Source: a virus. From it: a stretch of DNA of 48,506 bases. The DNA is taken from the IMG/VR virus record IMGVR_UViG_3300025887_000034, positions 1 through 48,506 of that record. One strand, written 5' to 3'. The notes beneath the pieces are model-generated. The model did no database searches. It was not told the origin of the DNA and saw nothing but the letters and a program-made list of their open reading frames with translations. Below, in pieces: positions 4,458-45,110 of the stretch. How positions within the stretch are numbered: position 1 is the first letter of the stretch; every line of letters starts with the position of its first letter. Both the position numbers and the translations under genes were made by a program.

Positions 4458-5006
4458 ATGGCAGAACGTAATCCCCTTGCAGGAACTATAGGAAATATTG
4501 ACCCGTTTGCAGCACCCCCGCCGGGACACTCCCTGACACAGGATAATTCTAGGTGGTCTTGGGGACAAGCTCCCAAGAACGCCGACCCAGAAGCGGCCTT
4601 AGAAGAGGTCGTTGAAAGACTTACCAAGCCTAAAATTAAACAGGAAACTTTAAAGCTTCTGTTGGTAGGTATATCCGTAGAAGTTATTGTAGAAGGCATT
4701 ATCATTCAAGGGTTTCAAGAGGGAGCGTTTAGCCTAGACACGGGCCTTCTTATGAAGCCTGCTTTGGGTATCCTGATTGCTGACATGGCAGAGGAAGAAG
4801 AAATACCCTATCGACTGTTCGAAAAGGATGACCCGGAATCCGAAGGCACAATGGATGATGAAACCTTCTTCAGAATGATGAAAGACAATAACCCCCAAAT
4901 GTTCTCCTACATTCAAGAGGCAGTAAACGCGGGTATTCGGGCAGGAGTCACTCCACAAGAACCAGAAGAGCGAGGGTTTCTAGCACCCCAAGAGGAGACT
5001 GAATAA
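4458..5006 (+). CDS. Hypothetical virion protein with C-terminal GFL motif
   Basis: 182 aa. After a Pro-rich N-terminus, a central hydrophobic part (KLLLVGISVEVIVEGIIIQG) and an acidic C-terminal third follow. The last residues contain RGFLAPQ. The same Gly-Phe-Leu signature recurs near the C-terminus of two other late proteins here, encoded at 31144 and 35174. The stop overlaps the next start (TAATG at 5004-5008), which implies translational coupling. Function unknown; virion association is inferred from the neighbours. Confidence 0.55.
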   Translation: MAERNPLAGTIGNIDPFAAPPPGHSLTQDNSRWSWGQAPKNADPEAALEEVVERLTKPKIKQETLKLLLVGISVEVIVEGIIIQGFQEGAFSLDTGLLMKPALGILIADMAEEEEIPYRLFEKDDPESEGTMDDETFFRMMKDNNPQMFSYIQEAVNAGIRAGVTPQEPEERGFLAPQEETE

Positions 5007-7000
5007 TGGCTATGGGAGTTGCATTTGTAACGGGGTTGTTGCAGGGAAGCATAGACAAGCGGCAGGCTGCTATCCAAGCAGCGCAAGACCAAAAAGAAGC
5101 TGAAGCTGCTGCCGCTGCAAAAACAGCGGAGTTTACAGTTGACCTCGTGAAGTCTGGAAAAGTTGATACCAATAGCGAAGGTTTTAAAAACTTCCAAAAA
5201 ACTGGAGACGTAAGATACTTAGTCAACGTGTCTAACACCATGGACAAGGTAAGCAATACGACTGCTGTTGGGGGTATAACCTTTGGCTTTAGAAACGATG
5301 GGGATTCTCCTATGGTTGCGGCTGGTAAAAACTTGCAGGGGATGAATACTCAGCTAACAAATCCATCATTTTATGCTGATGCTATTAGTAAAGCAAAGGC
5401 AAACCCCACCACCCTAAGGGCTGGTTTAGAGTTTATAGCATCTCAAAAAGCTTTGTATCAACAAAAATTTTGGTTGGATAACAGTGGTAAGGATGCGAAT
5501 ACAGGTAAGGTTACTGTTCCCCGATTTGCAGACTTTTCAGGCGGGGGCTTTAATGCTCTACTCCGGTTTGAAACAGAGTTGCAAGATATTTCAGGAACAG
5601 GGCAGGGTGCTGCTGAAGCACTGGCGATTGCTGAGTTAGATACCAAAGTAAACATAGCTACAGGTGGCAAAGGATTGAAGAGTGACGAGTTTTACGTAGA
5701 AATGCCCGATATTGTTAAAGAGGAAGATACTACGCAACAGCCTGACGTTTCGGCAGGAGCCGCTCCTAAACCTATGGTTGGTGGTATATTTAAGTTTGAG
5801 AGTGAGCAGCAGGCAATGCACGTTACAGTGCTAGCTGACAAGCTTGGGTTTGCAAACGTAAACATGATGTTTAAAAACTTGGCCTCTATCAGTAAGTTTG
5901 AAAAAGAAGATTTCTACAGAAATAAAGAAGCTCTCCTGAATGCAGCACAATTAAATGCTGCGGGTATTTTAAATTTTGATAGTGTGGGTGGAACTAGCGA
6001 TGCAGAAAACATTGCTGTAACGCAGACACTAGCAGACATAGGGGGTCCTACAGATAATCTATCCAATCAGATAGCCGCTGTGTATCCTTTAATGGCTGTA
6101 ATGTACCGCAACAACCCTTCTATGCCTCCCGGTTTTAGCGAAGGCAATATAAGTGGGGCGCAGTACCTAGCTAATCAAAAGATAAAAGCAGGAGAGGTTC
6201 GCGAAGTATATGAAGCAGCAGACCTGTCTGTGGGTATGCTAGAAGAACTCATCAAGTTAGAGGGAGACTTAGGTACCACAGGAGTTGTAAGGGAATTTCA
6301 AAAGATTGGTGCAGGTCTGTTTGGAGAAGGCGGTACAATTGACCAGATGTTCGGTAGTGGAAAGGTTCGCTACAGAGAGGACGACGCTAGTTCAATAGTT
6401 TTAGCGGATACTGCTAGAAAAGTTTTAGCAGAACAAGGGTTCACGGATGTTAGTGGGCCGTTGGGTAGAATTGAGTCTTTGAAAATTGCCCTAGCTGCAA
6501 AGATGGCCCGTGCTGTTGACCCGGCTGGTCGATTGTCAAACCAAGACTTTGAGATGCAGCTTAGACGACTAGGAGATGCAGGCTTCTTTAGTTCTACAGA
6601 ATTTAAAAAGGCTTCTCTGCAACAGGTTCTCGAAGAGTTCACAGAAAAACGTGACTCTGTAGAGAGGGTGTTTAGGATTTCTGGGATGGACTCCTTGGAA
6701 GAAAAGGATTTCATAGAAATAAAAGCCTACAAGATAGTTGATAATGCACGTAGGATGCGTAAGAAATACAACATAAATCAGCCTGTTGTTTCTGATGACT
6801 CTGGGGGTATGCCTAAACCTGAAGGACCAGCGTACATAACGGATACTGATACTGTTAACGCCTTAAATAACTCAACGCCAGACTCAAGTTTAGCTACCCA
6901 AGATGGAAGACCTATCTATGAAACCGGGGGAAAATTCTATTCCAAAGATGACAAGGGATATTTAGAAGTACCTCAAGGAAACGTTCAAATATTACAGTAG
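5006..7000 (+). CDS. Large putative internal virion protein
   Basis: 664 aa, mostly helical and acidic, starting with a short hydrophobic and then Ala/Gln-rich helix (IQAAQDQKEAEAAAAAKTAE). No enzyme motif is visible and I see no membrane segment of full length. The C-terminal 70 residues are Pro/Gly/Asp-rich and end in a small strand-rich tail (GRPIYETGGKFYSKDDKGY). It sits between two other large helical proteins in the same operon. By position it corresponds to the ejected core proteins (gp15/gp16 type) of T7-like phages, which form a conduit for DNA entry. Function inferred only. Confidence 0.6.
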   Translation: MAMGVAFVTGLLQGSIDKRQAAIQAAQDQKEAEAAAAAKTAEFTVDLVKSGKVDTNSEGFKNFQKTGDVRYLVNVSNTMDKVSNTTAVGGITFGFRNDGDSPMVAAGKNLQGMNTQLTNPSFYADAISKAKANPTTLRAGLEFIASQKALYQQKFWLDNSGKDANTGKVTVPRFADFSGGGFNALLRFETELQDISGTGQGAAEALAIAELDTKVNIATGGKGLKSDEFYVEMPDIVKEEDTTQQPDVSAGAAPKPMVGGIFKFESEQQAMHVTVLADKLGFANVNMMFKNLASISKFEKEDFYRNKEALLNAAQLNAAGILNFDSVGGTSDAENIAVTQTLADIGGPTDNLSNQIAAVYPLMAVMYRNNPSMPPGFSEGNISGAQYLANQKIKAGEVREVYEAADLSVGMLEELIKLEGDLGTTGVVREFQKIGAGLFGEGGTIDQMFGSGKVRYREDDASSIVLADTARKVLAEQGFTDVSGPLGRIESLKIALAAKMARAVDPAGRLSNQDFEMQLRRLGDAGFFSSTEFKKASLQQVLEEFTEKRDSVERVFRISGMDSLEEKDFIEIKAYKIVDNARRMRKKYNINQPVVSDDSGGMPKPEGPAYITDTDTVNALNNSTPDSSLATQDGRPIYETGGKFYSKDDKGYLEVPQGNVQILQ

Positions 7001-13013: not shown

Positions 13014-13155
13014 TGTCTTCATCCTCTGGTAAGTATACCATTACAAACGCATTGCAAGTTGGGCAACTCAGGTTGGTTTCCATGACAAACCCATCTAGGT
13101 CTGAGTCATGGTCACCACCCCAAGTTAACTCACTCTTACAATGCCAGCACTTCAT
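13006..13155 (-). CDS. 49-aa zinc-ribbon protein
   Basis: The ATG at 13155 overlaps the end of the reductase gene (stop at 13152). The protein reads MKCWHCKSELTWGGD at the start and then LSCPTCNAFVMVYLP: two CxxC knuckles 27 residues apart, ending in an acidic tail. This is a classic single zinc-ribbon. Tight overlaps on both sides support translation. Role unknown; possibly protein or nucleic-acid binding. Confidence 0.7.
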   Translation of the reverse strand: MKCWHCKSELTWGGDHDSDLDGFVMETNLSCPTCNAFVMVYLPEDEDNE

Positions 13156-15101
13156 GCTGCTGTCAAGTCCACTATTTCACACACCCCTGCTGAACAGGCA
13201 AGCTCCTGCGAGCCACTGGTGTTATCTTCCTTTTCGAACTCTGCTAGGTTCTCCCAGTCAATGTGAACCACATTCATACGCTCCTGCCACTCCGTATACT
13301 CATCAGGCTCTATGTCTTGGTAGGGTGCCTGTTGATATGTGTGGTCACTGTGAGGCAGGAACGACACGCCCGAAGCTACATCAAAGTTCTCGTAGACCCA
13401 CGCACCAACTTCCATCCACTCATGTTCCTTCACAGTTACAGTGATAGATGGCTTGTGTTCGCACCAGTGTATAGCGTAAGTCTTCCACAGTTCTAGCTGT
13501 TCTATAGCCGACATCTGTGTCCTTGTAACGGCACCTGATGGTGACTTCATAGGAAAGCTAAACACAGTGACACTGTCAGGCTTACCCATGTCTCTCTCTG
13601 ATGGCACACCACTATTGATTAGAAACTGTGTTAGGGGGTCCTTGTTATCGCCGCGAACTGTCCTGATAAAGTGGTCGTTGTGTCTTGCATGTATCCCGCT
13701 CGCTGCGTCCACCAGTTGTGACACAGTACCCGACGGCTTTACACAAGTGATTGCACTGCTCACTGGGATTCCAAGCATGTTCGCAAACTCCCGATTCGTA
13801 TCTACTGCGACTTGCCGCATCTCTTCTAGCCAACGCTTGCTGTCTACATTTTTGGATAAAACGGGATGGTCCATGATACCAGTCAAGGACACACCTAATA
13901 AACGCTCTTCCTCTGTGTTGTCTTTCCATACCTTCCTCAAGTATTTAAAATCAGTCAGGGTGGACTGCATAGTTCCAAGAATGGTAGCTAGTCTAACCTT
14001 TTGTTTCAACGTTTCAAGAGTATCATTCTCCCGAACCACACACTCTGACAGGTTGCAAAACTGGTACGGGCGTAAGATTATCTCACTGCAGGGGTTCGTA
14101 CCCCACATGTGTCCTGTCTCTCGTCTTCCATTACGAGCCACCTGCTTGTCAGCAGCCTCGCGATTGAACATGCCACGCTCGCCGGACTTGCTGTCGTACA
14201 GGGCAAGCCACTCACGCATGAACGTACCCATCTCTGGCTTGCTCTTGTAGGCAACAGAGTTGTTCGCCAAGGCTCGTTGTCCATTACGATATATTTGTTT
14301 GTCGGGTTCATCCCACCATTCACCAGCTTTGGCGTGGCGCATCTGGTCATCATTTAAATTAGATAGGCTAATCAAGGCTGACCTGCGAACGCCCCCTACA
14401 ACGACTACCTCGCCCACCTTACACATGAGGTCGTGGCACTCAATAGGAAACAGTCTGCGTCCCGCTGCCTTCTTAAATATATTCACAGTAAAGTTGAACA
14501 GGTCAACTAGGGGTTGCGGCCCACTAGCCCTGCCCCCCATAATCTTTAGCCGCGAACCTGCCGGACGAATATCGGATACATCCCATGTGGGAATCTGTCC
14601 TGCGTACAACAACGCAACCAGTTCGCGGTATGACTTTGCCCACCCCGGCTTGCTGTCTGCTACCTTGATAACAGTGTCGGACTCGTTCATTGCGTCACTT
14701 ATTACAGGCAGCTTATCTACATTCTCTCGTTCTACAGAAAACCCGACTCCGGTACCACACATGAGAATATACATGCACTCATCGAAGGAACGGGGATTGT
14801 CAACAGGTATGTAACTACAGTTGTAGCCACAGATATTGTCACGAGATAACGCAGAGCCTGCAGTCATCATTGCTCTCATAGACGGCATAACCCCAAGGGA
14901 CAAGACCCCTTCCTCAACCTCTTTGACAACGTCAGAGGGAATACTAACACCACACTTTTCTTTAACGTGGCTAGTCATAAAGTCTATGTACCGCCCTACA
15001 GTTTCTCCCCAATGTTCGCGGCGACTGTCACTGTCGAGCCAACGAGCATAGCGGGATTTGTGAATGAATTGTTGATATACAGTGGGCAGTTGGTTGTTCA
15101 T
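13152..15101 (-). CDS. nrdJ: Class II (B12-dependent) ribonucleotide reductase
   Basis: 649 aa from ATG 15101, which has AGGAG upstream; a longer frame exists but lacks a site. It reduces ribonucleotides to deoxyribonucleotides using adenosylcobalamin, so it needs no oxygen or partner subunit. Cys95 in ICGYNCSY is one redox cysteine. C338, E340 and C349 in NPCSEIILRPYQFC have the exact spacing of C408/E410/C419 of the monomeric Lactobacillus enzyme. PSGTVSQL and a C-terminal CSAGVC pair (shuttle cysteines) follow. It supplies dNTPs for phage replication. It depends on host cobalamin. No ATP-cone is evident. Confidence 0.93.
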   Translation of the reverse strand: MNNQLPTVYQQFIHKSRYARWLDSDSRREHWGETVGRYIDFMTSHVKEKCGVSIPSDVVKEVEEGVLSLGVMPSMRAMMTAGSALSRDNICGYNCSYIPVDNPRSFDECMYILMCGTGVGFSVERENVDKLPVISDAMNESDTVIKVADSKPGWAKSYRELVALLYAGQIPTWDVSDIRPAGSRLKIMGGRASGPQPLVDLFNFTVNIFKKAAGRRLFPIECHDLMCKVGEVVVVGGVRRSALISLSNLNDDQMRHAKAGEWWDEPDKQIYRNGQRALANNSVAYKSKPEMGTFMREWLALYDSKSGERGMFNREAADKQVARNGRRETGHMWGTNPCSEIILRPYQFCNLSECVVRENDTLETLKQKVRLATILGTMQSTLTDFKYLRKVWKDNTEEERLLGVSLTGIMDHPVLSKNVDSKRWLEEMRQVAVDTNREFANMLGIPVSSAITCVKPSGTVSQLVDAASGIHARHNDHFIRTVRGDNKDPLTQFLINSGVPSERDMGKPDSVTVFSFPMKSPSGAVTRTQMSAIEQLELWKTYAIHWCEHKPSITVTVKEHEWMEVGAWVYENFDVASGVSFLPHSDHTYQQAPYQDIEPDEYTEWQERMNVVHIDWENLAEFEKEDNTSGSQELACSAGVCEIVDLTAA

Positions 15102-15400
15102 TTGGTTTCTCCTTGAACCTTTAATAATTTGTTTAAGTACCATGCGGCCTTGTTTAGGTCTTCTGTTTTGTTCTTGTAGCGTTCTCGCCATGTGTACTTT
15201 AGGTTGTTACCCTTACAGTACCCCCTAAATTCTTCTGGGGTTAGGGCTGCTTGTATGGCATCTATGCACTCTATTCCTGCACTGTTGTAGTGTGGGGGAC
15301 TGTTAACCATGTCCACAACAACATTACCATAGGCTTCTTTGCCTGCTCGTTCATTCGATTCGGCAATCTTCTCTTTCATATACGCTTCATGTCGTTTCAT
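15098..15400 (-). CDS. DUF3310 family protein (nucleotide kinase-like)
   Basis: 100 aa, stop overlapping the reductase start (ATGA). The hallmark DUF3310 string is present: VNSPPHYNSAGIECIDAI, then EFRGYCKGNNLKYTWR, then LNKAAWYLNKL. The family is common in phages and often labelled nucleotide kinase, but I see no P-loop, so that label is doubtful. Its place next to the reductase fits a role in nucleotide metabolism or replication. Confidence 0.85.
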   Translation of the reverse strand: MKRHEAYMKEKIAESNERAGKEAYGNVVVDMVNSPPHYNSAGIECIDAIQAALTPEEFRGYCKGNNLKYTWRERYKNKTEDLNKAAWYLNKLLKVQGETK

Positions 15401-29422: not shown

Positions 29423-31144
29423 GTGGCCCCACGCAAAAGAGTCCTAGTCCCCCCGAACCCAGAAGACCTAGGCAAGGTCGGCAGACCTAAGAAAAGACCC
29501 GGCGAACCCAAGACCACACACAAGATTAGTGACCGGGAACGTGCGCGGCGTTCTGTGCAGATGAAGCTAAAGAATGCCAAGAAGAAGCAGGTCAAGCAGG
29601 ATGTGAAGACAGCCCGGAACCGTCGCAAGGTTCGTGACCTGACCAGCGCAGCCAAGAATGTAGAGAATGCCCTAAACGGAAACAAGACCCGTGTGGTAGA
29701 TGCTGCAGACTTAGACGTATTACCCCCAGCAGTTACGGACCTAATAGATGATACCCCTGTCATTTTCAAACCTAATGAAGGACCTCAAGAGGACTTTCTT
29801 TCGGCTTCCGAACAGGATGTACTTTATGGCGGGGCCGCTGGCGGTGGCAAGTCATTTGCTTTACTTGCTGACCCCCTACGCTATTGCCATAATCCCAACC
29901 ATCGTGGCCTTCTTCTCCGGCGAACGCTCGACGAACTAACGGAACTCATCGACAAGTCGAAGCAGCTATACCCCAAGGCATTTCCCGGCGCACACTTTAG
30001 AGAGTCCAAGTCAACGTGGGTCTTTCCATCCGGTGCAACCATGTGGTTTACCTATCTCGACAGAGATAAGGATGTCACCCGTTTTCAGGGACAGGCGTTT
30101 AACTGGATTGGCATAGATGAAATAACACAGTACCCCAGCAGCTACGTCTGGGACTATCTTCGTTCTCGTCTTCGTTCGACGGACCCTGAACTACAGAAGA
30201 ACCTAACCATGCGCTGCACAGCGAACCCCGGTGGTGTTGGCGGCTGGTGGGTCAAGAAGATGTACATTGATGCCCACGAACAGAACAAGGCGTTCGGGGC
30301 TAAAGACTTAGAAACAGGTCGAACCTTTGTGTGGCCTGACAACCATCCAAAAGCAGGTCAACCCCTATTCTACCGCAAGTTTATCCCAGCGAGGTTGACT
30401 GACAACCCCTTCCTGATGGCAGATGGTCAGTATGAGGCCATGCTTCGGTCACTCCCGGATGTCGAGCGTAGACGACTCCTAGAAGGGGACTGGGATGTGG
30501 CAGAGGGAGCGGCCTTCCCAGAGTTTTCGAGGGTACGACATGTGGTCGAACATTTTGAGCTTCCCACGAACTGGCCTCGCATACGTGCCGCCGACTATGG
30601 CTACTCGTCGCCGTCGTGTGTCCTGTGGGGTGCTATTGATTGGGATAACAATATTTGGATTTATCGCGAACTTTACGTAAAACACTTGACAGCAGAGCAA
30701 TTAGCTGATAAAATATTAGAATGTGAGGAGTTGGACCCGTTACCTCATTATACGGTCCTAGACTCTTCATGCTGGAACAAGACCGGATTCGGCCCTTCTA
30801 TCGCAGAGACTATGATGAGGGCCGGGGTTAGGTGGACTCCATCCGACCGCAATCGTCTACAAGGAAAAATGGAACTACACAGGCGGCTTGCTGACGACCC
30901 CCACTCTAATGAACCCCGTATGCGAATCTTTTCCACTTGTAAGCATATCATTGCACAGCTATCGGGCATTCCACTCTCCAAAACTAACAGTGAAGATGTA
31001 GACACGAGAGCAGAGGACCATGCCTACGATGCGTTGCGATATATGGTTATGACGCGAACCAGCGGATACACTTCGATACACAAACAACTGCAGGGCATCA
31101 AAGACCAAGCCTTCCAGCCCTATGATGCTACGTTTGGATACTAA
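29423..31144 (+). CDS. terL: Terminase large subunit
   Basis: 573 aa, GTG start at 29423. The first ~110 residues form a Lys/Arg-rich extension. Walker A is GGAAGGGKS (136-144), Walker B WIGIDEIT. The nuclease part has RAADYGYSSPSCVLWG, YTVLDSSCW and EDHAYDALRYMV with the expected acidic residues. It powers DNA packaging and cuts the concatemer. The stop overlaps the next start (TAATG). Confidence 0.93.
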   Translation: MAPRKRVLVPPNPEDLGKVGRPKKRPGEPKTTHKISDRERARRSVQMKLKNAKKKQVKQDVKTARNRRKVRDLTSAAKNVENALNGNKTRVVDAADLDVLPPAVTDLIDDTPVIFKPNEGPQEDFLSASEQDVLYGGAAGGGKSFALLADPLRYCHNPNHRGLLLRRTLDELTELIDKSKQLYPKAFPGAHFRESKSTWVFPSGATMWFTYLDRDKDVTRFQGQAFNWIGIDEITQYPSSYVWDYLRSRLRSTDPELQKNLTMRCTANPGGVGGWWVKKMYIDAHEQNKAFGAKDLETGRTFVWPDNHPKAGQPLFYRKFIPARLTDNPFLMADGQYEAMLRSLPDVERRRLLEGDWDVAEGAAFPEFSRVRHVVEHFELPTNWPRIRAADYGYSSPSCVLWGAIDWDNNIWIYRELYVKHLTAEQLADKILECEELDPLPHYTVLDSSCWNKTGFGPSIAETMMRAGVRWTPSDRNRLQGKMELHRRLADDPHSNEPRMRIFSTCKHIIAQLSGIPLSKTNSEDVDTRAEDHAYDALRYMVMTRTSGYTSIHKQLQGIKDQAFQPYDATFGY

Positions 31145-32784
31145 TGGCAGACCTCGACCCAAAAACCGCAACCCTTCGTGAAGTTGCTGAAGCTTACGCT
31201 GAGAAGTCGAAGCGGGGGAAGGCGTTTGTTACTTCTTCATTACAATTCTTTAAAGACATTGCAGACGAACCCGGCTCTGCCCTACGGCTGTTCGAAAAGG
31301 ACCCTGAAGGGGTTACCCTTCTTTCCAAGACTTTTAAAGGTACAGAAGATACATCGACCGTCAAGACAGCGATGCAAAACCTTCGCCAAGTTGGTTTAAC
31401 CTTAAAAGAGTCCGTCGGTCCTGACACACCAGAATACAAGCTGTTACCAGACAAAGCCCCGAACACAGATGTAAACAATCGTATCTTTGGGCGTAGCGAA
31501 CCTGCTAAAGCTGCATCAGAGGTTGCAATCAACCCAGATAAAGCTAAGATGAGCCAGTTGTTCGCAGGTGTTTCTAAGTATCTTGACAACCCTAATACCA
31601 AAGCCACTGCCCAAGCAATTATTTTTAACCTCAATACTGGCCTTCGTCCTAACGCTGCTGCTGGTCTTCAGGTAACTGCATATAAACCTGATAGTGGTGC
31701 TATCTATATTGAGGCAGAAACCAAGGGTGCAAAGGGCCGTCCTGTAAATATCCCCTTGAACCCTATTGCAGACAGTATCCTACAGGATAGTCTAGCTTCA
31801 GGAAACAAAGAAAACTTCTTTGTTAAACCAAACGGCAAGGTAGTTACATCTAGCGATATGACAGACCTTTTAAAGGATGTCAAGGTAAAAGACATTGCCT
31901 TTGATGCTGCTACGGGTAAATATTTTGATACACTAGCCCCTGCTGGCTTTACAGGTAAGAAGGGTTCGGCCCTTTTGCGTAACATCCACGCTACCGTGGG
32001 ACAATCAATTGGTGTAGACCAAGACCGCCTAGCTTTCTTGCAGGGTCGTAGTCTCAAGTCAGCCGGTAAGAGCAGTACAGGAGAACTCACAACCTACCAG
32101 CAGGCATTTCCGGGTGCAGTTGGTGAAGTTGACCGCCAGAACGCCAATATGTTTGCTAGTTTCTGGGGGGACGCTGCCAAGGAAGCAGGGTTTGACATTA
32201 AATCCAAGATTCCGATGCCAGAAACCCGTATCACAACCCAGACTGCAGGATATGAAGGCTACTTCGAACTCCCGGTTCGTGAAGAGGTTCCCACTACTCT
32301 CAAGTCCACAGACAACATAGACAAGAATGTAACCTCTAGCAACTTACAAGAAGAACTTTCTAGTAAAGGGTTGGACTGGGATGGTCTGGTTAAAAACATA
32401 GGTAAGAAAATTGACACTACAATTAAAGCTGGTGGGGCTGCCCTACTTGGAACGGGTCTTTACGAAGCTGCTCGTGACCCCGAAGGGGCTGGCGCAGCAA
32501 TGGCACGGGACTTGGCTATAGAAGGAGTTGGTTTAGCTGCACGTGTGGGAGCAGGTGTTGCCGGAGCTTTGCCCATGATTTTGGACTCGACAGCTACTGC
32601 TGGTCCCGAACTATCAGAGATGCCACCCCCGCGAACAGACTTTATCCCTGCCAGAGAGGTAGAGGAAACAGACGAAGACATAATGGCACGAGTTGCCACA
32701 CAGGATTCTGGCATGATTCCAGAACCGGACAGGGTTCCTCAAGCCGCCCCTGCCCAAGACCAAGGCTTTCTTTCCGTTAACTAG
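31144..32784 (+). CDS. Tyrosine recombinase-like protein with C-terminal tail
   Basis: 546 aa, coupled to the large terminase. Residues 155-325 follow the tyrosine-recombinase catalytic domain: NTGLRPNAAAGLQ (R168), AETKGAKGRPVNIPL (turn lysine), LLRNIHATVG (R279), GKSSTGELTTYQQ (Y318). The two usual histidines are absent: Ala276 and Lys309 stand in the HxxR and H/W positions. A Gly/Ala-rich hydrophobic part (IKAGGAALLGTGLYEAA, VGLAARVGAGVAGALPM) and a Pro-rich tail ending QGFLSVN follow. Position among head genes suggests a virion or head-assembly role more than integration. Confidence 0.6.
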   Translation: MADLDPKTATLREVAEAYAEKSKRGKAFVTSSLQFFKDIADEPGSALRLFEKDPEGVTLLSKTFKGTEDTSTVKTAMQNLRQVGLTLKESVGPDTPEYKLLPDKAPNTDVNNRIFGRSEPAKAASEVAINPDKAKMSQLFAGVSKYLDNPNTKATAQAIIFNLNTGLRPNAAAGLQVTAYKPDSGAIYIEAETKGAKGRPVNIPLNPIADSILQDSLASGNKENFFVKPNGKVVTSSDMTDLLKDVKVKDIAFDAATGKYFDTLAPAGFTGKKGSALLRNIHATVGQSIGVDQDRLAFLQGRSLKSAGKSSTGELTTYQQAFPGAVGEVDRQNANMFASFWGDAAKEAGFDIKSKIPMPETRITTQTAGYEGYFELPVREEVPTTLKSTDNIDKNVTSSNLQEELSSKGLDWDGLVKNIGKKIDTTIKAGGAALLGTGLYEAARDPEGAGAAMARDLAIEGVGLAARVGAGVAGALPMILDSTATAGPELSEMPPPRTDFIPAREVEETDEDIMARVATQDSGMIPEPDRVPQAAPAQDQGFLSVN

Positions 32785-35153: not shown

Positions 35154-35184
35154 CCACGAGGCAATAGTTAGAAATGGCACCTAA
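34957..35184 (+). CDS. Small helical protein overprinted on the portal end
   Basis: 75 aa from ATG 34957, lying 197 bases inside the portal gene in the +1 frame. The sequence WQGLEEYLQILKEQTHRG, then SELRQLQGKAALLEMLLQL has the regular helix and LQG.....L..LL.L signature that I recall from the small gene after the portal in many marine phages. AAGGA precedes the start. It ends inside the next gene (11-base overlap). The portal tail over this stretch is low complexity, as expected where it is overprinted. Confidence 0.7.
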   Translation: MYSKEQAKLVAPLLAQPKIWQGLEEYLQILKEQTHRGLVTAQSESELRQLQGKAALLEMLLQLKDNHEAIVRNGT

Positions 35185-38100
35185 ACCACCAACGTTCTTT
35201 AACCCAGAATCTATTAGCTATGACCAGTATTCCAAGGGTCCTGTTGACTTCTACAATCAGGCCCTAGATGTGGATAGCTTGACAGGTACTGGTATTGATA
35301 TTGTCAACCCCGATGACATTACCAAGTTGAAGGATTATGGGATAGCTGGTGGTGGTGGTGACGACGGCGGCGATACTCAGGATGATGCCCTGAATGACTT
35401 GGGGGGTATAAATATACAGGCCACTCCTGAAGAAATAGCGCAGGGAAAAACTTCGATGTTTCCGGGCGGGACGGGGATAGAGTACAATAACTTTAATGCC
35501 TACGATAAATACGAGTCCTATTCGGACTACATAACCGGAGAAAAGCCGCCGGGGATGGCAGACCGGGTAGACTTTATTTCTAACGTCATGGAACCCCTCA
35601 CATCTGGCAGGTTTGGAGACATAGACTTTACAGCGGGAACGAAGGGGCTTGCTGACCGCGTTGGAACCGACATGGTCGAGGGCGTTACAAAGCCCGATGC
35701 TAAGACTGGGATAAAGGGAGCCTTGGTAGCTGCAAACCCCATGCTAGGTCTTGTAGGCTCTGCCGTACTCAGCACCACCACCGTAAGAAACGCTTTTGGC
35801 AACATCAGCGCACGGCCTGATGGTATCCTTGGTATGGTTGCAGATGCGGTTCACTCTACTCAGTACGCGGATATGGCGCACAATAGGGCTGTTGCACGGG
35901 CCAACATGACTGATTTTAGAGAGTCAGTGAGTGGCATGACTGAAGACCGTTTTCAAGATGACAGTTTAGCAGGAAGATTTGCAGCAGACCGGGACATTGG
36001 CTTCTCCATGTCGTTTGGAAGCGGCACCGGAGCAACAGGCATAACCCGCAAAGCCGGAACCTTCACCTACACAGGAAACATGCGCGGCCTAGACAATCAA
36101 ACCCTGAAGAACATGGAAGCTGTGCAGCGGGGCTTTGTCCCTAGTACCTTTGGAAACCGAAACTTTGGTTTTGACTACACAGGCAGGGGTGCCACCACTT
36201 TCGAGGAAGCCGGTTACAGCGGGGAAGTTGCAGGGGGTGGACGCTACACCGATACCGGAGCTTTTATGGACCGGTACGGTCGTACTTCCATGATGGGCCT
36301 TGCCAGTCACTCTAAGTCTTTAGCAGCCAAGCATGGTTTAAGTGAAGCTGAGATTGGTTCAATCCTGAGTGCCACCCGTAAAGGTCAAGGGAAGCTCATG
36401 GATAATATCAAGGCAGCAAAAGCTTCCAAGGCGCAGGCATTAGAGACAGCAAGAATCGTAGAAGAAAGAACAAGGCAGGCAGCAGCAGACAAAGCACTTA
36501 GAGACCAATATGGTTCCGGTGTTGTTACCAGTGAAGACAGTGGCGGTGATTATGGTGTCGGCGGCGGCGGCGGTGACTTTGATAGTGGTGGTAATTTTGG
36601 TTCTACCGCAGATGATGATGTAGAAGCAGGGGATTTTAAATATGGCGGTAAAGTACCCGGCTACGCCATGGGAACCCCGCCAGCGGGGGTACAAGCCTCA
36701 CAGAGCGGTTTTGTAGACAGACCGCCATCACAGGTCTCCGAAGCCGGTAAAGTCGCTGACGACCGTCCTATGAAGGCTAAAGAGGGAACCTACGTTATAA
36801 ATGCGGCTGCTGTCGAGTTCGCGGGAGAGCAGGACATCCGCAAAATGATTATGGATGCCCAGAAAGAAGCGGTTCGCAGGGGTCTTTCAACAGGAGACTT
36901 TGAACGGCATTCCGACCTCGTTGATATTGCGGTGTCTCGCGGGGAAGTAACCGTAGCCCCACACCTAGTAGATATCATTGGCGAAGACCGCCTAGAGAAG
37001 ATTAATAAACGAGGCATTCGGAAAACCGAACAGCGCATAGCAGAGAATGGGCAGGAGCCGGTTCAAGCCGCAGGGGGTGGCTTTATCACTAGAAAAAAGT
37101 TTCATAGTGGCGGGGGCGTACACTCGCACAACGTAAAAGCAGCAGTAGGTATATCTGGGACTTCCAAGTATGGTATGACTAGCGAAGACTTAGAAATTGA
37201 CCATCTTCAGGAAGAACAATATAAAAGAAAATCAGCCACTCCTACTTTTAAATCTAAAGCTGAAGAAGAGTTGTATAATCAGGGAGTTCAATTCGGTGAC
37301 ACAGAGGTTTTTGCTGACATACTAGGTAAAACAAACTTTAATAAGCTTATTCAAGCAGCGGCTAGAGATAGTAGAACATTAAGTGATACTGTAACAACTT
37401 TAAGACCGGGTGAGAACGTGGCTAACCCTTACCACAGGAATGCAATGGGGTTATACGCTCAGTATGGGCGAGAACCCTACACTTCACCTGTATATGAAGA
37501 TGGTGAAATAAATTATACAGATTCTCTAAATAATCGCATGGGTGCAAAATCCACTAAAGACTTTAGAGCAGACGTATCGAATAGTGCTATACTAATGAGA
37601 AGTCCCGCCGGATTTGGTGGACCTAGCACGGATTATTTAAAACCCCCTATGGCTTATACTGCAACTCTAGCCCATGAATTAATGCACAAGGGGGCAGACA
37701 TACTAGCAAACGACCCAAACTTTAATCCTAGTAGGTCGTTGGTTGCAATGCAAGGGTTATACGCAAGATTACCCAGCATTACTAGATATATAGATGATAA
37801 AATAGATTTTGAAACGTATAGTAAAGCAAAGGATGAAAAACGAACTAGCGGAGATGCCGAACATAGGTACATTGCGGCTGTTATAGGGCAAGCTTATCTA
37901 CGAAGAAATATAGAAAGTGTAGCGGGAGCTTTTGAAAAGTCACAAAGACCCCCTAAAGGTTTTGAAGATTCATTTGGAAAAGTGACAGGCTCTGACCTTG
38001 TAAACGAAGCAAAACAGAATATTCTATATGAAACACGAAGAGTATTTGAAAGTTATTTAACTCCTGCAAACAGGAAACAGTTTTTTGAAGAAAACAGCCT

Positions 38101-38437
38101 GTTTAAATTAGATTCTGAATATGACACTTTAGATTTAAAAGTAGGAAAGATTTGGAACAGAAAAGATGTAAATGAAATTCCGTTTGAAGAATTAGCTGCA
38201 GCCTATGATTCTATAAACAGAATTATGGCAGAAGATTACGCAGCAATATTGTTTAAAAACGCGGTAGTAGATAAGCCCGTTAACATCCCCCGTAGGAAGA
38301 CCTCTCCAAAACCAGCTTCTGCAAAAGCACCCTTACAGGATGCAACAGGTGCCGCAGTAGGAAGTCAACCTGCACCCGAACAAAAATATGAACGCGGCTT
38401 CCTAGACAAGATGCTAGGTGTAACACCTGCGTACTAA
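35174..38437 (+). CDS. Large virion protein with zincin-like HELMH motif
   Basis: 1087 aa. After acidic and Gly-rich parts, residues 491-502 read GGKVPGYAMGTP, then two related units, KEGTYVINAAAVEFAGEQDI and SRGEVTVAPHLVDIIGEDRL, a pattern common in large marine phage structural proteins. The C-terminal third has LAHELMHKG (H834, E835, H838), the HExxH zinc-metalloprotease motif, and E896 could be the third ligand. The end is RGFLDKMLGV. A virion protein with a possible peptidase domain is my reading; activity is unproven. Confidence 0.6.
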   Translation: MAPKPPTFFNPESISYDQYSKGPVDFYNQALDVDSLTGTGIDIVNPDDITKLKDYGIAGGGGDDGGDTQDDALNDLGGINIQATPEEIAQGKTSMFPGGTGIEYNNFNAYDKYESYSDYITGEKPPGMADRVDFISNVMEPLTSGRFGDIDFTAGTKGLADRVGTDMVEGVTKPDAKTGIKGALVAANPMLGLVGSAVLSTTTVRNAFGNISARPDGILGMVADAVHSTQYADMAHNRAVARANMTDFRESVSGMTEDRFQDDSLAGRFAADRDIGFSMSFGSGTGATGITRKAGTFTYTGNMRGLDNQTLKNMEAVQRGFVPSTFGNRNFGFDYTGRGATTFEEAGYSGEVAGGGRYTDTGAFMDRYGRTSMMGLASHSKSLAAKHGLSEAEIGSILSATRKGQGKLMDNIKAAKASKAQALETARIVEERTRQAAADKALRDQYGSGVVTSEDSGGDYGVGGGGGDFDSGGNFGSTADDDVEAGDFKYGGKVPGYAMGTPPAGVQASQSGFVDRPPSQVSEAGKVADDRPMKAKEGTYVINAAAVEFAGEQDIRKMIMDAQKEAVRRGLSTGDFERHSDLVDIAVSRGEVTVAPHLVDIIGEDRLEKINKRGIRKTEQRIAENGQEPVQAAGGGFITRKKFHSGGGVHSHNVKAAVGISGTSKYGMTSEDLEIDHLQEEQYKRKSATPTFKSKAEEELYNQGVQFGDTEVFADILGKTNFNKLIQAAARDSRTLSDTVTTLRPGENVANPYHRNAMGLYAQYGREPYTSPVYEDGEINYTDSLNNRMGAKSTKDFRADVSNSAILMRSPAGFGGPSTDYLKPPMAYTATLAHELMHKGADILANDPNFNPSRSLVAMQGLYARLPSITRYIDDKIDFETYSKAKDEKRTSGDAEHRYIAAVIGQAYLRRNIESVAGAFEKSQRPPKGFEDSFGKVTGSDLVNEAKQNILYETRRVFESYLTPANRKQFFEENSLFKLDSEYDTLDLKVGKIWNRKDVNEIPFEELAAAYDSINRIMAEDYAAILFKNAVVDKPVNIPRRKTSPKPASAKAPLQDATGAAVGSQPAPEQKYERGFLDKMLGVTPAY

Positions 38438-43009: not shown

Positions 43010-43491
43010 AATACAGAACAGAACATTTCCTAGATAAACTAATTCACCATGAGGGTATGGTGCTTACTGTGTATGAAGACAGTCTGGGCATCGAAACTAT
43101 CGGCATTGGTCGCAACCTTAAAGACAGAGGCATTACCAAAGAAGAGCTAGACTACATGGACATTCCTAGCATGGATGTGGTCTACGAACACGGTATTACC
43201 GAAGCCGACGCTCGTTACCTTGCCATGAACGACATCCGCATAGTCGAAAACGAACTGTGTCGAGTTCATCCTTGCGTTGAAGACTTAGATAGTGTAAGAC
43301 AGTTGATACTGATGGACATGGCATTTAATATGGGAGTTCCCCGCTTGTGTAAATTTAAAAACATGTGGGGTGCAATCCACGACGGTAACTACGAGATAGC
43401 ATCTATCGAAATGTTGGATTCCAGATGGGCGAAGCAAGTGGGTTCGAGGGCCGTTAAACTTTCGGACGCGATGAGAGCGGGGGAGTTTTAA
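43006..43491 (+). CDS. Endolysin, T4-type lysozyme (GH24)
   Basis: 161 aa. E16, D25 and T31 in HHEGMVLTVYEDSLG and IETIGIGRN have the exact spacing of T4 lysozyme E11/D20/T26. DMAFNMGVPRLCKFKNMW and SRWAKQVGSRA are further GH24 marks. It cuts peptidoglycan glycan strands at the end of infection. No signal sequence, so it needs the holin encoded upstream. Confidence 0.92.
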   Translation: MKYRTEHFLDKLIHHEGMVLTVYEDSLGIETIGIGRNLKDRGITKEELDYMDIPSMDVVYEHGITEADARYLAMNDIRIVENELCRVHPCVEDLDSVRQLILMDMAFNMGVPRLCKFKNMWGAIHDGNYEIASIEMLDSRWAKQVGSRAVKLSDAMRAGEF

Positions 43492-43700
43492 TGTCTACAT
43501 ACGGAAAACAAGAAGGCAATTATATTGTGTACCGTAATAAACAAGGTACTATAACAAGTAAAACTTGGAGTCCCGTGACAAAAAAAGATTCCATACGCAA
43601 GCAGACATTTAGTCGTAAAGCTGCGGATAGTGCAGAGAAGTCTACTATAGAAAAGTATGCCGAAGAAGGTATGTCAATTGTAAAAGGATTATTTGATTAG
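43491..43700 (+). CDS. Hypothetical 69-aa protein
   Basis: Starts on the last base of the lysozyme stop (TAATG) and ends on the GTG of the oxygenase gene. Strand-rich start (NYIVYRNKQGTITSKTW), basic middle, helical end. No domain recognised. Confidence 0.55.
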   Translation: MSTYGKQEGNYIVYRNKQGTITSKTWSPVTKKDSIRKQTFSRKAADSAEKSTIEKYAEEGMSIVKGLFD

Positions 43701-44773
43701 TGCCACCACGTAATCATAGAGACTGGACTAAGACTCCCAAAGTAGAACACATCAGTTCTTCAATCTACTCTAGTCACGACATCTACAAGCAGGAACAAGA
43801 AAACATCTTCTCTAAGGTGTGGGTTCCTATGTGCCACATCTCTGAGATGTACAATGAGGGTAACTACAGGACCACACAAATTGCTAGACAAAATGTAATT
43901 GCAGTTAATACCAAAGATGGTGTTAGGGCATACCGTAACTACGGATTTAATTCACCTTCGGGTACTGTAGCTGCACCAATCGTAACAGTTGAACCACAGC
44001 TACACTGTGAAGTAAAACATGGCGGCATGGTCTGGGTTACCCTAGACCCTAACCCAACGCAAAGTGTAGACGAGTGGACAGGCGGTGCATTTGACTGTAT
44101 TGCGGATGCTATCGACACTGAAGAAATGGAAGTCTTTCACTACCACAAGGCAGTAATAGATACAAACTACAAGCTGTGGCACGATACCAACAGCGAGTTC
44201 TACCACGATTTTATGCACTACTTTAATCGTGTGTCAGGGTTTAACGATGAATACTTTGCTAGAAAGAACATACCATTCGATAACGGACATGTTAATGTTA
44301 GCAGCTTCACCGTTAACTACGAGGAGTACGACGGCTTTGAGGATAGAGGAGAGCTTAGTTTCCCTAACCTGCCACCCAATCAGTGGTACATGGTTGACCT
44401 GTTCCCCGGATTTAATTTTAACCTGCGCGGTAGTGCTTACCGAAGTGATAGCGTTACACCTCTTGGGCCAAACAAGGTTCTTATTGAGTTTCGCGGCTAC
44501 GGTCTTAAAAAAGATACCCCAGAGGAACGGCAGACTCGTATCAAGCACCACAATTCTATCTGGGGTCCGTTTGGGCGTAACCTACACGAAGACCTCATAG
44601 GCGTAGCAGGTCAGGGTACAACAATGCGTGAGGGAACCGAACCTCGCAACATCCTGCACGGGCGGCACGAGAACAGTACCATTCACGACGAAGTTGGTAT
44701 GCGCCACTACTACGCAGAGTGGAGCAAATGGATGGGCTTGGATGCGAGTAAGTCTTGGCAATTAGTGGCGTAG
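43700..44773 (+). CDS. Rieske-type oxygenase alpha-like protein lacking Rieske ligands
   Basis: 357 aa, GTG start. It resembles the large subunit of methanesulfonate monooxygenase, known from HMO-2011. VWVPMCHISEM and VRAYRN mark the start of the Rieske domain and GGMVWVTLDPN its end, but only about 28 residues separate RN and GGMVWV, and no CxH or CxxH pair is present. The catalytic iron site is kept: NYKLWHDTNSEFYHDFMHYF (N156, H169, H173) and NLHEDLIG (D298). Without the 2Fe-2S centre ordinary electron transfer is not possible, so it may be a non-redox relic, a binder, or work with a separate Rieske protein. Confidence 0.7.
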   Translation: MPPRNHRDWTKTPKVEHISSSIYSSHDIYKQEQENIFSKVWVPMCHISEMYNEGNYRTTQIARQNVIAVNTKDGVRAYRNYGFNSPSGTVAAPIVTVEPQLHCEVKHGGMVWVTLDPNPTQSVDEWTGGAFDCIADAIDTEEMEVFHYHKAVIDTNYKLWHDTNSEFYHDFMHYFNRVSGFNDEYFARKNIPFDNGHVNVSSFTVNYEEYDGFEDRGELSFPNLPPNQWYMVDLFPGFNFNLRGSAYRSDSVTPLGPNKVLIEFRGYGLKKDTPEERQTRIKHHNSIWGPFGRNLHEDLIGVAGQGTTMREGTEPRNILHGRHENSTIHDEVGMRHYYAEWSKWMGLDASKSWQLVA

Positions 44774-44775
44774 TT

Positions 44776-44934
44776 ATGTTTTGTCTTATTGCAGTTAGCC
44801 CTGTTGAGGTAAAAGCTGCTGTACACTCTACTCACAAATGGCTTTCTCACTGTCACGTAGCTGTAACCGAACACGGGTTTTACAACCCGGATGAGAATTG
44901 CTTCTGCGTTGGAATGGATAAAGAGATAGAATGA
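44776..44934 (+). CDS. Hypothetical 52-aa protein
   Basis: ATG 44776, two bases after the oxygenase stop. MFCLIAVSPVEVKAAVHSTH is followed by a His/Cys-rich part (SHCHVAVTEHGFYN, NCFCVG). Its stop overlaps the next ATG. Possibly metal binding; no family known to me. Confidence 0.5.
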   Translation: MFCLIAVSPVEVKAAVHSTHKWLSHCHVAVTEHGFYNPDENCFCVGMDKEIE

Positions 44935-45110
44935 TTGTGTTTGTGCTATACGTGTACTTGGGTGCAAATATAATAGACCGCACACAACAGTTCGTAGACA
45001 TGGATAGATGCCTATACTTTGCTCAAAGATTGTCGCGACAACAGTCTGTTCCAGCAAGTGGGGGTAAAAGACAAAAGATAACCGCAGTATGTAGACCCCA
45101 ACCAAAGTAG
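44931..45110 (+). CDS. Hypothetical 59-aa protein with hydrophobic start
   Basis: ATG 44931 on the previous stop (ATGA). MIVFVLYVYLGANI looks like a short signal or anchor; a helix with RCLYFAQRLSRQQ and a Cys near the end follow. The shape resembles the small protein at 28543. Function unknown. Confidence 0.5.
   Translation: MIVFVLYVYLGANIIDRTQQFVDMDRCLYFAQRLSRQQSVPASGGKRQKITAVCRPQPK

Follow-up and report, generated by a model that had tools for sequence, protein, structure and literature searches.

The alpha subunit of a Rieske oxygenase normally holds both the Rieske 2Fe-2S cluster and the mononuclear iron site. How could a virus make use of an alpha subunit that has kept the iron site and lost the cluster? 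Such a protein is encoded at positions 43700–44773 of the marine viral contig IMGVR_UViG_3300025887_000034, the whole 48,506 nucleotides of which were analyzed and are referred to here as the window. We suggest, with a probability of about 0.72, that the phage gene provides the catalytic half of a split methanesulfonate monooxygenase, which is completed by a Rieske-reductase half encoded by the host. The locus comprises the following features.

43491–43700, plus strand: 69-amino acid ORF without an assigned function; its stop codon overlaps the GTG start of the following gene by one base.
43700–44773, plus strand: Rieske-less MsmA-type oxygenase alpha subunit (putative catalytic half), 357 amino acids, GTG start, PF00848.
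43700–44041, plus strand: Rieske-domain remnant (residues 1–114); basal β-sandwich retained, cluster loops absent.
43940–44020, plus strand: deletion junction (residues 81–107), the site of CxH-X26-CxxH in canonical MsmA; ∼47 residues absent.
44120–44737, plus strand: mononuclear iron catalytic domain (residues 141–346), PF00848, 80% identical to canonical SAR116 MsmA.
44195–44197, plus strand: Glu-166, the equivalent of the bridging glutamate Glu-205 of CntA according to the EFYH/ECYH motif alignment.
44204–44218, plus strand: iron ligands His-169 (44204–44206) and His-173 (44216–44218), H-x3-H, with the spacing of canonical MsmA.
44591–44593, plus strand: Asp-298, the invariant carboxylate iron ligand (HEDLIG).

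The 69-residue ORF and the oxygenase gene are probably translationally coupled. Ring_hydroxyl_A (PF00848, E 1e-7) is the sole Pfam match of the 357-residue protein; the Pfam search did not detect a Rieske domain (PF00355), and the protein belongs to no PHROGs family. The original prediction, made from the nucleotide letters, had placed an intact iron site at His-169, His-173, and Asp-298 and had described the stretch between Asn-80 and the GGMVWV motif as free of CxH or CxxH pairs. Both statements hold: the three ligands are found at these positions, and the 27 residues that separate Asn-80 from Gly-108 contain neither pair. An alignment with 63 full-length MsmA relatives (CxH-X26-CxxH present in 62) shows that ∼47 residues are absent from the phage protein at this gap. 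Residues 17–80 align with the N-terminal half of the Rieske domains in solved oxygenases, indicating that the basal β-sandwich was kept and that the cluster-binding loops alone are gone. β-Strands are predicted for the N-terminal remnant by AlphaFold2, the model of which (pLDDT 84.5, pTM 0.86) retrieved Rieske oxygenase alpha subunits with Foldseek (best E 8e-20), namely those of terephthalate dioxygenase (TPADO), NagGH, and CntA (TMq about 0.65–0.76).

Judged by its sequence, the ORF is a derivative of the alpha subunit of methanesulfonate monooxygenase (MsmA). It possesses a 2-His-1-carboxylate catalytic domain of the MsmA type, which is 80% identical to that of the canonical MsmA from SAR116 locus L179, and the phage protein shares up to 80% identity with short MsmA proteins encoded on SAR116 chromosomes.

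The lack of the Rieske center extends to all viral relatives that we inspected. HMO-2011 was named in the original prediction as carrying a related gene, with the state of its Rieske domain left as an open point; its gp61 (ADW08429.1, annotated as MsmA) is 74.8% identical to the window protein and shows the same deletion. Scans of IMG/VR returned at least about 600 relatives per scan, of which 204 loci (148 distinct proteins) were fetched and examined. All 204 lack the CxH…CxxH motif and retain both iron-ligand motifs, so that the deletion is common to the phage clade; we found neither Cys/His ligands elsewhere in the protein nor a viral homolog in which the gap is filled. MsmA Rieske codons gave no match in a collection-wide IMG/VR scan of 2.9 million viral contigs, using a pattern that matches 45 of 63 cellular MsmA loci as well as the host partner genes described below. 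An assembly error as the cause of the gap is ruled out by these 204 loci and by two further metagenome contigs (L002 and L003) that encode a 100% identical protein.

His-169, His-173, Asp-298, Asp-162, and Glu-166 are invariant in 52 of 52 aligned phage, short host, and canonical sequences, and the second-shell residues are likewise invariant across the three forms. The suggested check for selective constraint gave a dN/dS of ∼0.03 in the catalytic domain compared with 0.23 in the N-terminal remnant; both are rough values, obtained from unsaturated pairs only (pairwise Nei-Gojobori), as dS is saturated in most pairs. Within the phage family, the junction at residues 81–107 is variable, and the first ∼100 residues (window 43700–44000) are mosaic, with very different N termini on near-identical catalytic domains.

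To place the phage protein among cellular enzymes, we collected its relatives from 84,980 prokaryote genomes, which yielded 63 long and 17 short proteins. The long proteins are 50–58% identical to the phage protein, and CxH-X26-CxxH, the hallmark of MsmA (PMC4433239), is present in 62 of them. The short proteins are 73–80% identical to the phage protein and lack this motif. Two of the short copies (L157 and L170, from a “Hellea” and a “Rickettsiales” MAG) lie on contigs without any conserved neighbor and group with phages in the tree; these contigs are probably of phage origin and ended up in the MAGs by binning. The remaining 15 are chromosomal, mostly from SAR116. Canonical MsmA is also found in many other marine bacteria. 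The cluster described next also occurs in bins named outside SAR116, namely in a Magnetovibrio MAG (L169, on a 232-kb contig), a Marinovum MAG (L163), and a Planktomarina MAG (L165); by tree position L165, and probably L163, look like SAR116, L169 is close to the SAR116 genome G092, and either misbinning or transfer is possible.

In SAR116, the short MsmA is encoded in an operon-like cluster together with a protein of ∼800 amino acids (c17), MsmB, the Rieske ferredoxin MsmC, a 275-residue protein (c10), the regulator LysR, the sulfite exporter TauE, PanB, and formate-THF ligase. The cluster of G092 additionally contains a DmsABC/SoeABC-like molybdoenzyme and an MsmE-type transporter. c17 is a fusion of an MsmA, the Rieske domain of which is intact (with the MsmA-specific 26-residue spacer), and a BphA4/putidaredoxin reductase-type FAD reductase (Pfam: PF00355, Pyr_redox_2, and Reductase_C). 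All 11 partners (11/11) keep the Rieske motif, and their iron-ligand helix and Asp-298 block are lost or destroyed. The ligand helix persists with replaced ligands in c17 from G092 and L169; the G092 protein has a glutamine at the position of His-169, a replacement of His-173, and a lysine at the position of Glu-166. With its iron domain half decayed, c17 of G092 is a plausible intermediate. The AlphaFold model of c17 is of moderate confidence (pLDDT 74), and its best 50 Foldseek matches all fall on the reductase part.

Comparison with the canonical SAR116 MsmA L179 demonstrates that the losses in the two proteins are complementary. For c17, the identity to L179 amounts to 81–85% over the Rieske domain and 35–54% over the catalytic domain; the corresponding values for the short and phage forms are 39–42% and 80–81%. 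The usual reductase MsmD (Fer2, FAD_binding_6, and NAD_binding_1) is encoded at 43 of 63 canonical loci but at none of the 17 short loci. c10 (∼275 residues, no Pfam hit) is located directly upstream of the short MsmA in most SAR116 clusters (e.g. L161:4921–5745 and L235:12555–13385), is also found in eight canonical msm loci, and may serve as a scaffold or in assembly. One SAR116 bin (G008) contains two complete split-msm clusters (L236 and L237) on different contigs, with genes for an MsmE–H-type transporter between the halves.

The two proteins also occur together. Among 136 SAR116 genomes (order of G007), the short form is present in 12, and c17 is found in all 12 of these; it is complete in 10, split by a frame break in G012, and partial at a contig edge in G006. 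None of the 12 encodes a canonical MsmA. One further genome (G018, locus L179) possesses canonical MsmA and neither half, and the rest of the 136 genomes have none of the three. The 12 short-form genomes include G092 (locus L235), a closed single contig of 2,753,527 bp that has the split form only. We take G092 to be, probably, Candidatus Puniceispirillum marinum IMCC1322, the host of HMO-2011. This reading is based on the fit of G092 to the published descriptions of IMCC1322, which report two “MsmA” proteins, one of them without a Rieske motif (PMC4433239), and an msmA near dmsABC in the genus of this strain (PMC8547437).

The window itself belongs to an HMO-type phage, its portal protein being 48–53% identical to those of HMO-2011 and the HTVC phages. 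Among the HMO-type isolates recovered by portal similarity, those infecting SAR11 (4) and Roseobacter (11) lack the oxygenase gene, whereas the SAR116 phage HMO-2011 carries it. A B12-dependent ribonucleotide reductase (window 13152–15191, minus strand) is 67% identical to that of HMO-2011 and is another nucleotide-supply gene of the window phage. In 34 of 150 phage loci, the start of the oxygenase gene coincides with the end of an upstream-ORF homolog, related either to the 69-residue ORF or to HMO-2011 gp62. Just downstream of the gene, a 59-residue ORF (44931–45110) resembles by eye HMO-2011 gp62, which is encoded upstream of the oxygenase gene in that phage; a lysozyme is encoded upstream of the oxygenase gene in the window and downstream of it in HMO-2011. 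These swapped positions indicate that the surroundings of the gene have been shuffled between related phages. Several large ORFs between or beside the structural genes (5006–7000, 31144–32784, and 35174–38437) have no PHROG match or, for 31144–32784, a weak integrase-like match (E 2e-5). The ORF at 31144–32784 is not a terminase; used as a query for HMO-type phages, it gave no match.

On the viral side, we found the catalytic subunit alone. No credible Rieske partner emerged when the window was searched with regular expressions and PF00355, and no ferredoxin gene was seen there. Matches to CxH…CxxH in other phage loci were located in antisense frames and are not partner genes. In 155 viral records, c17, MsmB, MsmC, and MsmD are absent, and only the alpha gene matches.

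In Rieske oxygenases, the distance between the Rieske cluster and the iron is >40 Å within one subunit and about 12 Å across the interface to the neighboring subunit, with a bridging acid in between; in CntA this acid is Glu-205, which is essential for activity (PMC7948474). Because electrons pass between neighboring subunits, a Rieske-only and an iron-only subunit could in principle rebuild the full path. Glu-166, the equivalent of Glu-205, would be useful only next to a Rieske-bearing neighbor, and its invariance thus counts in favor of a split enzyme. Complementary losses, co-occurrence, operon context, sequence anatomy, and purifying selection point in the same direction, as do the restriction of the gene to the SAR116 phage among the HMO-type isolates and the published split of NdmC/NdmD (PMC4408171). 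In SAR116, the alpha subunit would be divided into a Rieske-plus-reductase protein and an iron-only protein, and the phage would contribute the iron-only half and no Rieske half. We infer that SAR116 is the host of the window phage and that, during infection, the phage half physically assembles with the host Rieske-reductase subunit, MsmB, and the MsmC ferredoxin. The assembled enzyme would oxidize methanesulfonate to formaldehyde and sulfite, providing the infected cell with one-carbon units and energy. Methanesulfonate as the putative substrate is suggested by the kinship to MsmA and by the gene neighbors: the TauE sulfite exporter, the molybdoenzyme, and the MsmE-type transporter are consistent with methanesulfonate oxidation, and the proposed products fit the genes for sulfite handling and one-carbon metabolism that surround the host copy. 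Two observations constrain this model. The N-terminal remnant, which would be expected to face the partner, evolves fastest (dN/dS 0.23), and this counts against a split enzyme. Moreover, the two halves could not strictly alternate in an α3 ring, because the number of places in such a ring is odd.

Of the three roles put forward in the original prediction, cooperation with a separate Rieske protein is therefore strongly supported, with the qualification that this protein is a host-encoded Rieske-reductase fusion from the SAR116 msm operon, whereas binding of a sulfonate without catalysis and interference with the host enzyme complex became less likely in view of the invariant iron residues and Glu-166 and the low dN/dS of ∼0.03. 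The latter two roles correspond to a noncatalytic decoy or dominant-negative subunit that shuts down the host oxygenase or binds sulfonate and thereby redirects metabolism. Phages are known to make proteins that block host enzymes, and a decoy would account for a protein that has no electron input of its own and a diverse N-terminal remnant. Nevertheless, we consider a decoy unlikely, because phage, short host, and canonical forms do not differ in their iron ligands, bridging glutamate, or second-shell residues, and because the short form is the sole iron-bearing alpha subunit of the host operon, where its design is presumably catalytic. Comparably improbable is an entry of the phage protein into normal trimers of full-length host MsmA, which would bring their own Rieske clusters. 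Transfer between subunits would permit such mixed trimers, and canonical MsmA exists in some SAR116 (L179/G018) and in many other marine bacteria, but it is known in no host of a phage that carries the gene, and the probable host genome of HMO-2011 (G092) has the split form only.

The phage protein might also dispense with a Rieske cluster altogether and draw on another reductant, for instance a small soluble electron carrier or a peroxide shunt. Neither the window nor the neighborhood of the gene in other phages revealed a Rieske or ferredoxin gene, as such a reaction would allow; yet the strict conservation of the bridging glutamate and the existence of a dedicated Rieske-reductase partner in the hosts make it very unlikely. 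That the gene is decaying or passively carried without function, as the loss of one domain might suggest, has a negligible probability given a catalytic dN/dS of ∼0.03 and iron motifs that are kept in 204 of 204 viral loci. The split oxygenase hence remains our preferred reading.

We next considered the origin of the two halves. In the tree of the full protein, the chromosomal short copies of SAR116 form one clade within the phage diversity (100/100; sister to phage, 96/92), and the same placement is obtained with the catalytic domain only (89/89). However, a forced monophyly of the phages is not rejected (AU p 0.22, 0.14, and 0.30), and Cys-Pro at the first cluster-ligand site is found in 13 of 13 short host copies but in 0 of 104 scored phage copies. 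This Cys-Pro appears ancestral and was kept by the host copies, which argues against a phage-to-host transfer. The shape of the tree thus favors the direction from phage to host, but the AU tests lend it no support and the Cys-Pro trace contradicts it. c17 groups with the canonical MsmA L179 of SAR116 (100/92) rather than with the short form, indicating that the two halves probably derive from different MsmA lineages. A single clade of c17 and the short form is rejected (AU p 0.043), which narrowly disfavors an in-genome duplication of one MsmA into both halves. As a tentative scenario, which we regard as possible but rather doubtful, the short form arose in phages and was captured by SAR116, whereupon the host MsmA lost its redundant iron site and became a reductase-fused subunit for electron delivery. 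If so, the host enzyme would owe its division into two proteins to a phage gene.

HMO-2011 has been known to carry an MsmA-like gene (PMC4928673), and the missing Rieske motif in MsmA of HMO-2011, in one protein of IMCC1322, and in many virome sequences was noted in 2015 without an explanation or a partner (PMC4433239). The openly readable literature yielded no report of the Rieske-reductase fusion with a dead iron site, of its strict pairing with the short form, or of a half-enzyme reading. The published oddity of marine-virome, HMO-2011, and host MsmA proteins without a Rieske motif thereby gains a testable mechanism. If it is correct, split Rieske oxygenases could arise in a second way, by complementary decay of two MsmA genes, and a phage metabolic gene would do the work of half a polypeptide and need a matched host half. 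Estimates of how much methanesulfonate is turned over in the ocean are affected as well, because “msmA” counts from marine metagenomes lump together canonical proteins, Rieske halves, iron halves, and copies from viruses.

With MsmA, the alpha subunit of methanesulfonate monooxygenase (MSAMO), the phage protein shares the iron ligands, the H-x3-H spacing, the bridging glutamate, and a catalytic domain that is ∼80% identical to that of canonical SAR116 MsmA. It differs by the absence of CxH-X26-CxxH (∼47 residues), and its gene stands alone without msmB, msmC, and msmD, whereas the short host copies are accompanied by B and C. Compared with the alpha subunits of Rieske non-heme iron oxygenases in general, it has the fold of the catalytic domain and the bridging glutamate but not the Rieske 2Fe-2S domain. 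HMO-2011 gp61, which has the Rieske deletion as well, does not differ in kind. Another phage-borne sulfur enzyme is found in SUP05 phages, which, as cited in PMC4928673, carry subunits of reverse dissimilatory sulfite reductase; according to that citation, these phages likewise hold some subunits of a multisubunit sulfur enzyme of the host, whereas the subunit described here would be one half of a split polypeptide and dependent on the matching half in the host. The nearest precedent is the caffeine N7-demethylase NdmCDE, in which NdmD combines a Rieske domain with a reductase that has an FMN domain and NdmE is GST-like (PMC4408171); NdmC/NdmD is the only described split of such kind that we found in the openly readable literature. 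As in NdmC/NdmD, an iron-bearing subunit without a Rieske cluster is matched by a Rieske domain on a separate reductase, which is encoded here by the SAR116 host and not by the phage. The SAR116 partner differs from its Ndm counterpart in that a whole decayed MsmA is joined to a BphA4/putidaredoxin-like reductase of the FAD type; a further difference is that phages, too, carry the catalytic half.
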